64,000 nucleotides of DNA, from assembly GCF_021341785.1 (NCBI RefSeq), contig NZ_JAJTTF010000007.1, positions 186,001 to 250,000 of the forward strand. Direction: 5' to 3'. The translations under genes and the position numbers were made by a program. Below are positions 4,582-27,535 of this stretch, in pieces (the stretch's first letter is position 1; every line of letters starts with the position of its first letter). The notes under the pieces are model-generated. The model worked only from the letters and a program-made list of their open reading frames with translations. It did not search any database and was not told the origin of the DNA. This DNA comes from Microbacterium sp. Au-Mic1. GTDB lineage: Bacteria; Actinomycetota; Actinomycetes; Actinomycetales; Microbacteriaceae.

Positions 4582-5418
4582 TCAGCGGACGTTCACCTCG
4601 AGCCATGCCAGGGGATCGATCTCGGTGTTGTTCACGAGCACCTCGAAGTGCAGGCAGGATCCGGAGACCCATCCGGTGTTGCCGACCTCGCCGAGGTACT
4701 GTCCGGCGGTGACGCACTGGCCCACGCTCACGGCGCGGCTCCCGTAGTTCATGTGCCCGTACAGCGTGGAGATCGCGTTGGCCCCGCTCAGAGCGGGGTG
4801 CGAGAGCTCGATCGTCTCGCCGTAGCCTCCGTAGCCGTCCTGCGAGATCGTGACGCAGCCGTCAGCGGCCGCATAGATGGGAGTGCCGATCGGCGCGGCG
4901 AAGTCCTGACCCATGTGGCTGCGACCGCTACGGGCCGCGCCGAAGCCGTCGCTCAGCGTGTAGGAGCCGGCCGCCATGGGGTAGATGACCTGCCCGGGGC
5001 TCGCAATCGGCGCCATGTTGGTGCGCACGGAGGCGACCGAGGGCTTGGCTGCGGCCTCTGCGGCGGCCTTGGCCGCAGCGACGGCGGCCTCCTCCGCCTT
5101 CTTCTGCTCGATCTCCTGCGGCGTCGTCGCGGTGAAAGAACTCCGCGTGCCCGACACCGCCGTCGCCTCGGAGGCGACGACGATCGACTGCGCGTGACCC
5201 GCGGCGATCTGCTGCGCGGTCGCCGGCGACGCGGTGGCGGGCGACGCGGCGCCGGTCGCGAGAGCGGGCAGCGCGATCGCGGTCACCAGCGCTCCGACGG
5301 CGGCGAGAACGGCGAAGGTGCGGATCGGGCGCACCACGGATCGGGAGACCGGGCTCGTCGCACGCTTCGGGGAACGCGTGTCGACGGACATGTCGGTCTG
5401 TTCGAGTTCTTCGGCCAA
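4582..5418 (-). CDS. Exported M23-type (LytM-like) peptidase, variant active site
   Basis: The 278-residue protein has a cytoplasmic N-terminus, a hydrophobic anchor or signal segment (about 33-54), an Ala/Lys-rich helical linker (about 100-128) and a C-terminal M23 domain (about 145-278). The zinc ligands His168 and Asp172 (HMGQD) and His257, and the catalytic His222 (YGHM), are present. The motif usually GxHLHFE reads SGSCLHFE, so the first histidine of HxH is Cys255. M23 enzymes cut peptide cross-bridges in peptidoglycan; with this change the protein may be an altered enzyme or a non-catalytic activator like EnvC. The TTG start at 5418 has GGAGGAAG upstream and matches the architecture of the neighbouring paralogue (5653-6471); an ATG at 5391 is the alternative. 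Confidence 0.88.
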   Translation of the reverse strand: MAEELEQTDMSVDTRSPKRATSPVSRSVVRPIRTFAVLAAVGALVTAIALPALATGAASPATASPATAQQIAAGHAQSIVVASEATAVSGTRSSFTATTPQEIEQKKAEEAAVAAAKAAAEAAAKPSVASVRTNMAPIASPGQVIYPMAAGSYTLSDGFGAARSGRSHMGQDFAAPIGTPIYAAADGCVTISQDGYGGYGETIELSHPALSGANAISTLYGHMNYGSRAVSVGQCVTAGQYLGEVGNTGWVSGSCLHFEVLVNNTEIDPLAWLEVNVR

Positions 5419-5601
5419 GGGCTTCCTCCAGGCCTCGGCGCCGTGCGTCGGCTCGTCCGCATTCGCGTGCAGGTCGGGATTTCGACCTGCATCAGGATGA
5501 CCGCGGCGGTGACGAGCCGGGAGGCGGCCGCCGGGGTTATCACCGACGGGCTTCTCGTCGGCGACCTCCCCGACGTTACCCGATCGTGATGAATCTGTCA
5601 C
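5419..5601 (-). promoter_or_regulatory. Promoter and structured 5' leader of the first M23 gene
   Basis: On the minus strand, a -35 GTGACA (5601-5596) and a -10 TAACGT (5578-5573) are separated by 17 bases. Transcription should begin near 5566, and a hairpin starts almost at once: TCGCCGAC (5564-5557), loop GAGAAGCCC (5556-5548), GTCGGTGA (5547-5540), 8 bp with one G-U. A second stem, GCAGGTCG with CGACCTGC, follows further down the roughly 150-base leader. The second M23 gene has the same promoter spacing and the same hairpin loop with different stem bases. I compared it with the c-di-AMP (ydaO) riboswitch consensus from memory and do not see it. Confidence 0.65.
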
Positions 5602-5652
5602 CCCCGGATTCGGGAGAAGCGATCCGTCCGACCGATGGACGCCGAACGCCGG

Positions 5653-6471
5653 TCAGCCCGCGTTCGCGGCGAGCCAGGGTTCCGGATCGATGACCGAGCC
5701 GCCGATGCGCACCTCGAAGTGCAGGTGCGATCCGTAGGAGTTGCCGGTGTTGCCGACCAGCCCGATCAGCTGCCCCGCGGAGACCTGGTCACCCGCCTGA
5801 ACCATCCGGCTGCCGTAGACCATGTGACCGTAACGGGTCTCCACCATGGTGCCGTTGAGATTGCTCATGATCATGATCGAGACACCGTACCCGCCGATGC
5901 TCTCGGCGGACGCGGTCACGGTGCCGGCGGCTGCCGCATAGATCGGGGTGCCCTCAGGGGCGATCATGTCCCAGCCCTCATGACCGCGACCGGATCCGGG
6001 TCCTTCGCCGGGAGTGAAGCTGGTGACCGGGTAGCGCACGGCGCCCGAGCCCGGAGCGACAAGAGCCATCCCGGCGAGGGACGGGCGGGAGCTGCTGGCC
6101 GATGCTGCCGATGCGGCCGCCTCGGCAGCGCGGGCTGCGGCGGCGTCCTCGGCCTTGCGCTTCTCGATCTCGTCGGGCGTCGTCGCAGTGAACTGCCCGC
6201 GGGCGCTCGGGGCCTGCGTCGCCTCGGACGCGACCACGATCGACTGCGCGTTGTCGGCCGCCAGCTGCTCGGTGGTCACCGGAGCCGCATCGGCAGGACC
6301 ACTCGTCGACGCGAACGCCGGGAGTCCGATGGCCGCGACCAGGGCGCCGACAGCACCCAGGATCGCCACGGTGCGGACCGGGCGCACGAAAGCGGATCGG
6401 GCCGGGCCCTTCCTGAGCGTCGTCGCGTCGGCGCTCGTCGGGCTGGTGGTCTCGATCGTGGTCTCAGGCAA
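5653..6471 (-). CDS. Exported M23-type (LytM-like) peptidase, complete active site
   Basis: This 272-residue paralogue of the preceding gene (4582-5418) has the same plan: basic N-terminus, hydrophobic segment about 34-55, helical Ala/Glu-rich linker about 100-128 and a C-terminal M23 domain. All metal and catalytic residues are present: His164 and Asp168 (HEGWD), His216 (YGHM), His249 and His251 (GSHLHFE). It should be a secreted or membrane-anchored zinc peptidase acting on peptidoglycan. Both proteins share the linker segment AQSIVVASEAT and the following FTATTP, so they arose by duplication. The TTG start at 6471 is chosen for the GGAGGACAG just upstream and for matching the paralogue; an upstream in-frame ATG at 6549 lies inside the leader. 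Confidence 0.92.
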   Translation of the reverse strand: MPETTIETTSPTSADATTLRKGPARSAFVRPVRTVAILGAVGALVAAIGLPAFASTSGPADAAPVTTEQLAADNAQSIVVASEATQAPSARGQFTATTPDEIEKRKAEDAAAARAAEAAASAASASSSRPSLAGMALVAPGSGAVRYPVTSFTPGEGPGSGRGHEGWDMIAPEGTPIYAAAAGTVTASAESIGGYGVSIMIMSNLNGTMVETRYGHMVYGSRMVQAGDQVSAGQLIGLVGNTGNSYGSHLHFEVRIGGSVIDPEPWLAANAG

Positions 6472-6657
6472 AGTCTGTCCTCCGGCCTCTGCGCGGGATC
6501 GCGCCGGTCCGTCGTCGATCGGGTCGGTCCGTACGGGGTTCGGACGCATGTCTCTCCGCGGCGGCGACGGGCCGATGAGGCGAGCGCCGTGGAGTCCGTC
6601 GATGGGCTTCTCGCCGACGGCCCTTCCGACGCTACCGGAAAGTCACGAAAGTGTCAC
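6472..6657 (-). promoter_or_regulatory. Promoter and structured 5' leader of the second M23 gene
   Basis: On the minus strand, -35 GTGACA (6657-6652), a 17-base spacer and -10 TAGCGT (6634-6629). The hairpin near the expected transcript 5' end is CCGTCGGC (6620-6613), loop GAGAAGCCC (6612-6604), ATCGACGG (6603-6596), with 7 pairs including one G-U. Loop sequence and position match the first M23 leader while the stem bases differ. Direct repeats GTGACAC and GTGACTT, 11 bases apart, overlap the -35 and could be an OmpR-family site; MtrA controls M23 genes in other actinobacteria, but that link is inference. Confidence 0.65.
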
Positions 6658-6722
6658 ACTGCCCCAAGGATCTGCTGAACGTTGATTTTCCGCGGATCCA
6701 TCCGGGCGCGCACAGGCGTTGC

Positions 6723-6759: not shown

Positions 6760-7452
6760 TCAGGCGACCAGGAAGATGTGCGACGCGAGTTCGACCGGAA
6801 GCTCGAGCCCCTCGTCCTGCCCGTCGACCTCGATGAGCACGTAGCCCTCGTTGAAGCGGAATCGCCCGCGCGCTCCGGGGACGACACCGGCGTCACGCAG
6901 CTGTTCCAGCAGCTCGGGATCCACCTGCGCGGGTTCGGCCAGACGACGCACGGTGCCCTCGGTCGGCGTCCCCGCCGTGTTCATGTGCTCGACGAGTCCG
7001 ATCACGCCCTCGTCGAAGGTGCGCGCCGGCGTACCGCCGAGCTGGTCCAGGCCGGGGATCGGGTTGCCGTACGGCGACTCGGTGGGGTGACCGAGCAGCT
7101 CGACCAGACGGCGCTCGACCTGCTCGCTCATGACGTGCTCCCAGCGGCAGGCCTCCTCGTGCACGTACGCCCAGTCCAGTCCGATCACGTCGGAGAGCAG
7201 GCGCTCGGCGAGGCGATGCTTGCGCATCACGTCCACAGCTTTGCGGCGTCCGGCGTCGGTCAATTCGAGCCGGCGATCCTCGGAGACGACCACGAGCCCG
7301 TCGCGCTCCATGCGACCGACCGTCTGCGACACCGTGGGTCCCGAGTGCCCGAGGCGCTCGGAGATCCGGGCGCGCAGAGGGACGATGTTCTCCTCCTCGA
7401 GTTCGAGGATGGTGCGGAGGTACATCTCCGTGGTGTCGATCAGGTCGGCCAT
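6760..7452 (-). CDS. DtxR/IdeR-family metal-dependent repressor
   Basis: The 230-residue protein has the three-part layout of DtxR/IdeR: an N-terminal winged helix (about 1-65; recognition helix in SGPTVSQTVGRMERDGL), a dimerisation and metal-binding domain (about 66-140; with MRKHRLAERLL and CRWEHVMSEQVERRL, including Cys102, Glu105 and His106 of the primary site) and a C-terminal SH3/FeoA-like domain (about 150-230). It should repress iron-uptake genes when loaded with Fe(II); a manganese-sensing MntR role is less likely given the three-domain length. The ATG at 7452 follows AAGGGGGATCG. An iron box about 40 bases upstream suggests autoregulation. Confidence 0.93.
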   Translation of the reverse strand: MADLIDTTEMYLRTILELEEENIVPLRARISERLGHSGPTVSQTVGRMERDGLVVVSEDRRLELTDAGRRKAVDVMRKHRLAERLLSDVIGLDWAYVHEEACRWEHVMSEQVERRLVELLGHPTESPYGNPIPGLDQLGGTPARTFDEGVIGLVEHMNTAGTPTEGTVRRLAEPAQVDPELLEQLRDAGVVPGARGRFRFNEGYVLIEVDGQDEGLELPVELASHIFLVA

Positions 7453-7490: not shown

Positions 7491-7508
7491 GTTAGGCAAG
7501 CCTACCTT
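7491..7508. promoter_or_regulatory. Iron box (DtxR/IdeR operator)
   Basis: TTAGGCAAGCCTA at 7492-7504, followed by CCTT, matches the interrupted palindrome of the DtxR consensus TWAGGTTAGSCTAACCTWA over most positions. It lies between the DtxR-family gene and divergent serC, 40 bases from the regulator start, so it most likely mediates autoregulation. Confidence 0.7.
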
Positions 7509-26148: not shown

Positions 26149-26431
26149 CGTTCCTCTTGGTTTCTCGGGACCTGTGTCCCTGCAGCCTGCTGCCGACGGG
26201 CGCGGCACGGCACGGTCCGATGCTAGCCAGACAGGCTGAGAAATGACCAGACGGCCCCTGGTCGGACCCTGCGAGATCGCCCTCGGAAAGCGCTTCACCG
26301 GGATTGCTGGACCTCGCCGGAGCTCTCATGTCATACTGATCCCGGCCCGATGGCGGGCCACGGCGGGTTCACCCTCGTCGCTTTTTCACTACGGATCGTC
26401 CGGCACGTACCTGCCGGTGAAGGAGAAGACA

Positions 26432-27535
<1,104 letters not shown>

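Follow-up and report, generated by a model that had tools for sequence, protein, structure and literature searches.

A covarying leader RNA, probably cis-regulatory, upstream of cell wall hydrolase genes in the Microbacteriaceae

Here we describe a folded leader RNA of about 155 nt that precedes two tandem M23 peptidase genes in Microbacterium sp. Au-Mic1 and cell wall hydrolase genes in many of its relatives. The leaders are best explained as an undescribed family of cis-regulatory RNA of the Microbacteriaceae that gates hydrolase translation, a reading that we hold to be probable without being secure, as there is no experiment behind it and the gating is inferred. Two general features of a structured cis-regulatory leader are present, namely a covarying structure and a constant site 5' of one class of genes, near the Shine-Dalgarno (SD) sequence. 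A first-pass annotation of this DNA had recognised the promoter elements and one hairpin; to these we add helices P2 to P6, a pseudoknot, the position of P3 beside the SD, NlpC/P60 and CHAP genes behind the leader, a DtxR-family neighbour and an MtrA-type repeat.

Peptidoglycan hydrolases can kill the cell that produces them. How a bacterium without any sign of c-di-AMP restrains these enzymes is an open question.

Results

Organization of the window locus

The window is a stretch of 64,000 nt from the Au-Mic1 genome. On its minus strand a DtxR-family gene is followed by the tandem M23 genes B and A, each with a putative promoter, a leader and a GGAGG ahead of a TTG codon (5418-5416 in gene A, 6471-6469 in gene B). 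The leader scores below are from R1, a covariance model built from 27 leader sequences.

4582..5418, minus strand: gene A, M23 peptidase, 278 aa, TTG start; Peptidase_M23 match, signal-like N-terminus by eye
5416..5572, minus strand: leader RNA A, from after the -10 hexamer to the TTG; R1 94.8 bits, E 1.7e-24; used in training R1
5425..5429, minus strand: Shine-Dalgarno GGAGG of gene A
5573..5601, minus strand: promoter A, putative, by conservation; GTGACA 5601-5596, 17-nt spacer, TAACGT 5578-5573
5653..6471, minus strand: gene B, M23 peptidase and tandem copy, 272 aa, TTG start; Peptidase_M23 match, signal-like N-terminus by eye
6469..6628, minus strand: leader RNA B; R1 84.4 bits, E 1.2e-21; not used in training R1
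6479..6483, minus strand: Shine-Dalgarno GGAGG of gene B
6629..6657, minus strand: promoter B, putative, by conservation; GTGACA 6657-6652, 17-nt spacer, TAGCGT 6634-6629
6760..7452, minus strand: DtxR-family regulator, the usual neighbour upstream of the leader

The arrangement first described, GTGACA, a 17-base spacer, TAACGT or TAGCGT and about 155 bases to a TTG start behind GGAGG, is present in every element, with 154 nt (gene A) or 157 nt (gene B) separating the -10 hexamer from the TTG. Because leader B lies outside the 27 sequences of R1 and still scores 84.4 bits, the resemblance of the window leaders goes beyond chance. The host genome encodes a third M23 gene (L041, G000:C13:182387-183058), which shares 64% identity with gene A where the two align; lacking both a leader match and a nearby DtxR motif, it provides a natural leaderless comparison.

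Elsewhere in the window, TTAGGCAAGCCTACC lies at 7492-7506, upstream of the DtxR-family gene; it resembles an iron/manganese repressor box, perhaps for autoregulation. Rfam matches to an msiK RNA (26373-26432) and a Guanidine-III riboswitch aptamer (2792-2855) were also seen.

Helices of the leader RNA

The leader is modelled as a six-helix fold, P1 to P6, in which P2 crosses P4 and P3. The hairpin of the first-pass annotation is P1; its stems are exactly as written there, and it is only one of the six conserved helices. All of the following are on the minus strand.

5538..5566: leader A P1, GGTCGCCGACG / CGTCGGTGATA around AGAAGCC, 10/11 model pairs
5501..5536: leader A P2, CCCCGGCG (5536-5529) with CGCCGCGG (5508-5501), 7/8
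5450..5518: leader A P4, GGCTCGTC (5518-5511) with GACGAGCC (5457-5450), 8/8
5432..5525: leader A P3, GCCTC (5525-5521) with GAGGC (5436-5432), 2 nt before GGAGG
5459..5490: leader A P5, the least supported helix, 3/4
5438..5448: leader A P6, weak, 3/5 model pairs
6594..6622: leader B P1, GGCCGTCGGCG / CATCGACGGAC, loop AGAAGCC, 9/11 model pairs
6556..6592: leader B P2, CCACGGCG (6592-6585) with CGCCGCGG (6563-6556), 7/8
6506..6573: leader B P4, GGCCCGTC (6573-6566) with GACGGACC (6513-6506), 7/8
6485..6581: leader B P3, GCCTC (6581-6577) with GAGGC (6489-6485), 1 nt before GGAGG
6515..6547: leader B P5, the least supported helix, 2/4
6491..6504: leader B P6, GCGCG/CGCGC, 5/5

The loop of P2 in leader A contains the 5' strands of P3 and P4. 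Between the two leaders a U-A pair of P4 in A is replaced by C-G in B, which also carries one mismatch. Across the 88 leaders aligned below, the end of P3 lies 1-4 nt from GGAGG (3 nt in 77 of them) and the leader matches terminate in TTG in 86.

Both window hairpins contain GAGAAGCCC, whose outermost G and C form a pair in the model and leave AGAAGCC as the loop itself. This loop, described earlier as conserved, is indeed identical in the two hairpins but is frequent rather than invariant among the 88 leaders, where AGAAGCC occurs 52 times and AAGAAGCC 14 times; L151-L153 keep the P1 stem with a different loop. A second motif of the AAGCC/AAACC type, an echo of the P1 loop, is found just 3' of P2.

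Folded alone, leader A is more stable than its shuffles (z -4.65) and leader B is no better than its own (z +0.93). No intrinsic terminator was found in the leaders, whose T runs do not exceed 4, and no upstream ORF is conserved, an SD-like sequence with a start and an in-frame stop occurring in at most one of the 88 at any column. Both an intrinsic terminator and a coding leader peptide were thereby rejected.

Covariation of the helices

The claim that the stems differ and keep pairing, as a selected RNA structure would, is upheld by covariation in three alignments, A3, A5 and A7, with weaker support from a pooled null. A3 is a MAFFT alignment, not fitted to structure, of 27 of the 42 leaders then in hand, leaving out rows shifted by MAFFT, window leader B and some near copies; R1 was built from it with its structure limited to P1, P2, P5 and P6. 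In A3, 90.2% of cells are paired, as against 30-47% when partners are slid by 1-3 columns, and both partners differ in 19 of the 41 pairs, a count that none of 500 shuffles reached (their mean being 11.7). A5 comprises 88 leaders, 84 from the genus (out of 143 matches) and four from Labedella. Stems that failed to covary in more genomes would have counted against an RNA structure; in A5 both partners vary in 34 of the 41 pairs, a count that none of 500 shuffles reached (their mean being 24.5), and slid versions give 12-21.

Alignments A4, A5 and A6 were fitted to model structures, which biases their counts toward the structure; A3 and A7 were not. P3 and P4 are 97-98% paired in A4 and A5, with compensatory changes, and this is not a product of the fitting, because the R1 structure had neither helix. 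Run unguided on A4, RNAalifold recovered P1, P3, P4, P5 and P6, with 27 pairs, 21 of them showing compensatory change. Under a tree-based null computed pair by pair, the top 12 z-scores of all 11,175 column pairs include 11 that fall on the structure, the highest per helix being 14.9 for P2, 9.7 for P1, 7.9 for P3 and for P6, 7.7 for P4 and at most 3.4 for P5; this null is an in-house one, on a FastTree tree of the same alignment, and not R-scape. The cruder pooled null retained only two column pairs at E<=0.05, both in P2.

The NlpC-class leaders described below were aligned separately with MAFFT only (A7, 18 of 20, without L203 and L205), P2 being counted on its three inner pairs and the P4 and P6 columns corrected by hand. 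In A7, 94.0% of cells are paired and 14 of 27 pairs changed on both sides (0/500 shuffles). Both P3 and P4 could be identified with 6 bp or more in 17 of the 18, compared with 6% of shuffles that preserve single-base content only. P3 lies 1-2 nt from the SD in all 18; the search was limited to 1-3 nt, so that this is partly by construction.

The 5' strand of P3, GCCUC, is also able to pair with GGAGG of the SD; such a pairing was rejected, because the covarying partner of this strand is GAGGC rather than the SD. Compensatory variants of P3 are GCCCC/GGGGC in L004 and CGUCCCGA/UCGGGACG in Labedella. The crossing of P2 with P3/P4 can be a pseudoknot or two competing states: covariation supports the pairings, and their coexistence is inferred. 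As a separate observation, the NlpC-class P6 loop ACCUAGU could pair with AUUAGGU, which lies within the first hydrolase codons of L208, L210, L212, L213, L215 and L220, a pairing that is present in several genera and not kept in L200, L218 and genus g32.

Distribution within Microbacterium

The promoter and loop pattern occurs in 7 of 149 genus genomes, and further leaders were reached through M23 protein matches. A search for more homologues with a covariance model, as proposed at the outset, was productive: R1 at E<=1e-8 places the leader in 140 of 148 Microbacterium genomes (130 of 134 good ones) and, with the models described next, relatives were found in eleven further genera. There is one copy per genome, except for three genomes with a tandem pair, that of the window included. 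G043, one of the eight genomes without an R1 match, has a diverged copy. An M23 motif lies downstream of all 88 leaders of A5, and leaderless M23 paralogues occur.

Distribution beyond the genus and exchange of the enzyme

Outside Microbacterium, R1 gave one convincing match, in Labedella, with compensatory changes in P3 and P4; most of the weak ones (E<=0.01) looked by eye like coding sequence and were set aside. R2, a covariance model with P1, P3, P4, P5 and P6, matched 35 of 299 Microbacteriaceae genomes at E<=0.01. In all, the leader is found in eleven further genera of the family, Labedella and ten others (g32, g38, g58, g86, g87, which contains Humibacter, g90, g93, g99, g108 and g109), a count that leaves out the weakest R2 matches (g53, g55, g72). 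The RNA-model searches of genomes score 7-19 candidates per genome, so misses are likely; g108 genomes that had escaped R2 were found by R3. Among 347 genomes drawn from the order and 394 drawn from the class, the matches listed, 17 in each draw, all belong to the Microbacteriaceae, although the first-look filter lets some slip by. A P1 pattern, sought in 84,980 species genomes, gave 37 stretches, all titled as Microbacteriaceae or its genera.

In the ten further genera the gene behind the leader encodes an NlpC/P60 protein, as found for 5 of 5 proteins given to Pfam. The 35 further records, some of them duplicates, comprise 29 with NlpC/P60 and four with M23 by motif; the remaining two, from Labedella, were missed by motif and are M23 by homology. 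R1, trained on M23 leaders, matches all 19 loci tried (18 NlpC-class and L207) at E<=4.2e-5. The catalytic domains of the M23 and NlpC/P60 proteins belong to different families, and their N-terminal parts are homologous (hhalign probability 99.6, E 7e-24, 100 columns).

Two arrangements place different enzymes side by side. In Labedella L229 and L230 the next gene after M23 encodes an NlpC/P60 protein (by Pfam for L229), and a second, weaker leader match accompanies it (E 0.0017 and 0.0063). In g90 (L201/L271) the NlpC/P60 gene is followed by one for a CHAP-domain protein (L271 226-1467, G247:C3) whose N-terminus looks similar by eye; both genes have the leader, the second at E 2.4e-7. Leader and N-terminal module thus stay together while the catalytic domains differ, and we infer that tandem duplication probably lies behind this pairing.

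The M23 genes of genus g31 (L096-L099) have upstream regions that are leader-like by eye and give no R3 match up to E 0.5; the sole R1 match there (L098, E 0.0064) is on the strand opposite the gene. L096-L099 also show a possible P4-like GAGTCGC/GCGACTC pairing and may represent a more diverged version of the leader.

The DtxR-family neighbour

Short DtxR-family motifs accompany the leader at all 46 source loci of A4, all 35 further records and 37 of 40 later loci. Of the three without the standard motif, L158 has a variant of it, and L161 and L187 have a different upstream protein. The motif is absent at eleven leaderless M23 loci (L012, L014-L017, L024, L027, L033, L041, L043, L054). Given the exceptions L161 and L187 and these leaderless loci, the link to DtxR is strong and not absolute, and the leader goes with the hydrolase. 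The upstream gene at L161 and L187 (also as L273 and L274) is not of the DtxR family; that of L274 looks by eye like an arsenate reductase type.

Promoter and MtrA-type repeat

The shared promoter that had been claimed is borne out by its hexamers, spacing and conservation but not by a sigma-70 consensus scan of 5380-6720, which gave no promoter-like site at its threshold; the word promoter therefore rests on conservation. GTGACA also begins a direct repeat. In promoter B it reads GTGACA-n5-GTGACT and passes a strict MtrA-type pattern; in promoter A it reads GTGACA-n5-ATCACG, with a degenerate second half-site, and fails. A second half-site follows GTGACA after 11 bp (GTnAC-n6-GTnAY) no more than 60 bp upstream of 79 of the 88 leaders, at -29/-30 in 74; the pattern failed in nine, window A included. 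The background is 0.012 per 60 bp over all loci, leaders included.

The published Streptomyces MtrA site is GtnAcC-n5-GTnAcn (PMC13189361; similarly in PMC5650626), and the MtrA targets of C. glutamicum include wall peptidases (PMC3353115). The host genome encodes MtrA, with one match above the NF040689 cut-off (383.6 bits). Two features of an MtrA regulon promoter, a direct GTnAC repeat with a 5-6 nt spacer and the presence of mtrA, are found, without binding data. GTTAY repeats with an 11-bp period occur farther upstream at L091-L093 and L095 (Labedella) and at many of the NlpC-class promoters (L200-L219), possibly as a second MtrA-type site.

Discussion

Comparison with known RNAs and systems

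The first-pass annotation did not match the leader to any actinobacterial leader known to it; in Rfam 15 no family covers it at the gathering threshold (window and 20 loci), and leaders of both classes give only chance-level matches at E<=10. The NLPC-P60 and lysM-Actino motifs are said to be candidate cis-regulatory RNAs near actinobacterial wall-enzyme genes; our leaders match no Rfam family above chance, the Rfam entries of these two motifs being unchecked. B. subtilis cwlO is an endopeptidase gene with a long leader, an OmpR-type regulator and a known mRNA instability. The parallel lies in the long leader on an endopeptidase gene; the bacterium is unrelated, and no sequence comparison was made.

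Another likeness is to C. glutamicum nlpC, a wall peptidase gene and MtrA target with a structured, terminator-less leader, which is controlled by a c-di-AMP riboswitch, reportedly acting on translation, together with MtrA (PMC9960051). Unlike that gene, our leaders have no Rfam match, and the host has neither RF00379 nor a diadenylate cyclase match. The C. glutamicum genes mepA, mepB and nlpC are likewise wall peptidases under MtrA, with direct-repeat sites; in contrast to our loci, no common leader is mentioned for them in the passages concerned (PMC3353115, PMC5650626, PMC13189361). The titles and opening lines of abstracts returned by searches of open-access papers contain no description of such a leader.

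Proposed mechanism

Transcription would probably begin at the base of P1, driven by a promoter that overlaps the MtrA-type repeat; this is inferred, the starts being unmapped. The RNA would fold P1 and then the pseudoknot, P4 arising when a downstream strand pairs with the loop of hairpin P2; P5 and P6 would form in between, and P3 would close 1-4 nt before the SD. Formation of P3/P4 would most likely limit ribosome loading on the TTG-started hydrolase mRNA, an inference by analogy with the C. glutamicum nlpC riboswitch and its reported action on translation (PMC9960051). Some signal, at present unknown (a small molecule, ion, protein or temperature), may shift the balance between P3/P4 and P2.

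In 72 of the 88 leaders the state with P3/P4 is more stable than the alternative. Simple energies show no switch, since the SD is almost equally accessible in the forced states (0.24 free, 0.32 with P2, 0.35 with P3/P4). Further points against a regulatory family are that there is nearly always one locus per genome and not a scattered regulon, and that leaderless M23 paralogues exist.

Alternative explanations

A sharper form of the preferred reading, for which ligand-binding data do not exist and which we can put forward only tentatively, is a new riboswitch class that senses a metabolite or an ion, with the P2/P4 pseudoknot as aptamer and P3 as expression platform. It would account for a pseudoknotted core with invariant pairs at a close, fixed distance from the SD, and it has a precedent in nlpC of C. 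glutamicum, under a riboswitch reported to act on translation plus MtrA (PMC9960051). The usual neighbour, a metal regulator of the DtxR family, would suit it as well, but is missing at two loci; moreover, the leader is nearly always at one locus per genome and within one bacterial family in the draws made, and no transport or biosynthesis gene lies beneath it to indicate a ligand. The fullest version, a new riboswitch class for a metal ion or wall signal that gates wall hydrolases without c-di-AMP, the RNA and the N-terminal module travelling together while M23, NlpC/P60 and CHAP domains are exchanged, is about as tentative. A protein might instead bind the leader, for example at the P1 loop, and set translation or decay; AGAAGCC does recur (52/88 M23-class and 9/18 NlpC-class leaders), as does the AAGCC/AAACC-type motif after P2 (both motifs in 24/88 M23-class leaders, the second in 10/18 NlpC-class ones), but the loop is lost in some genomes that retain the rest and no partner is known, which leaves this on the unlikely side while worth keeping in mind.

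The other readings find less support. The first-pass annotation had offered a cis-regulatory RNA or a 5' stability element for wall hydrolase mRNAs; homologues and covariation support this pair of options, and the choice within it is undecided. That the folded leader merely protects or destabilises the mRNA, with no sensing, fits P1 at the predicted 5' end and has a parallel in the unstable cwlO leader of B. subtilis, but a hairpin of that kind would need no covarying long-range P3/P4 beside the SD, and we regard it as doubtful. Conservation at the DNA level, as regulator sites, or of a coding leader peptide could draw on the conserved DNA repeat in the promoter part; stems that covary while their sequence changes, and the near absence of an SD-like sequence with start and in-frame stop (at most 1/88 at any column), make it very improbable. 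Least credible is a diverged c-di-AMP (ydaO/kimA) riboswitch, to which the first-pass annotation could not match the leader either. The kind of target gene is that reported for C. glutamicum, but RF00379 matches neither the leaders that were scanned nor the host genome (99.52% complete), which also gives no match to diadenylate cyclase PF02457, whereas among 14 control genomes B. subtilis and C. glutamicum were positive for RF00379 and 11 of the 14 for PF02457; this candidate was rejected.

Conclusions

Our preferred reading remains that of a cis-regulatory RNA family gating hydrolase translation. The same folded RNA is kept across relatives of a soil-type bacterium even where the enzyme family behind it differs, and for this reason the leader probably controls the amount of potentially self-destructive hydrolases. 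The alignments and models could serve directly as the basis of a new RNA family entry.
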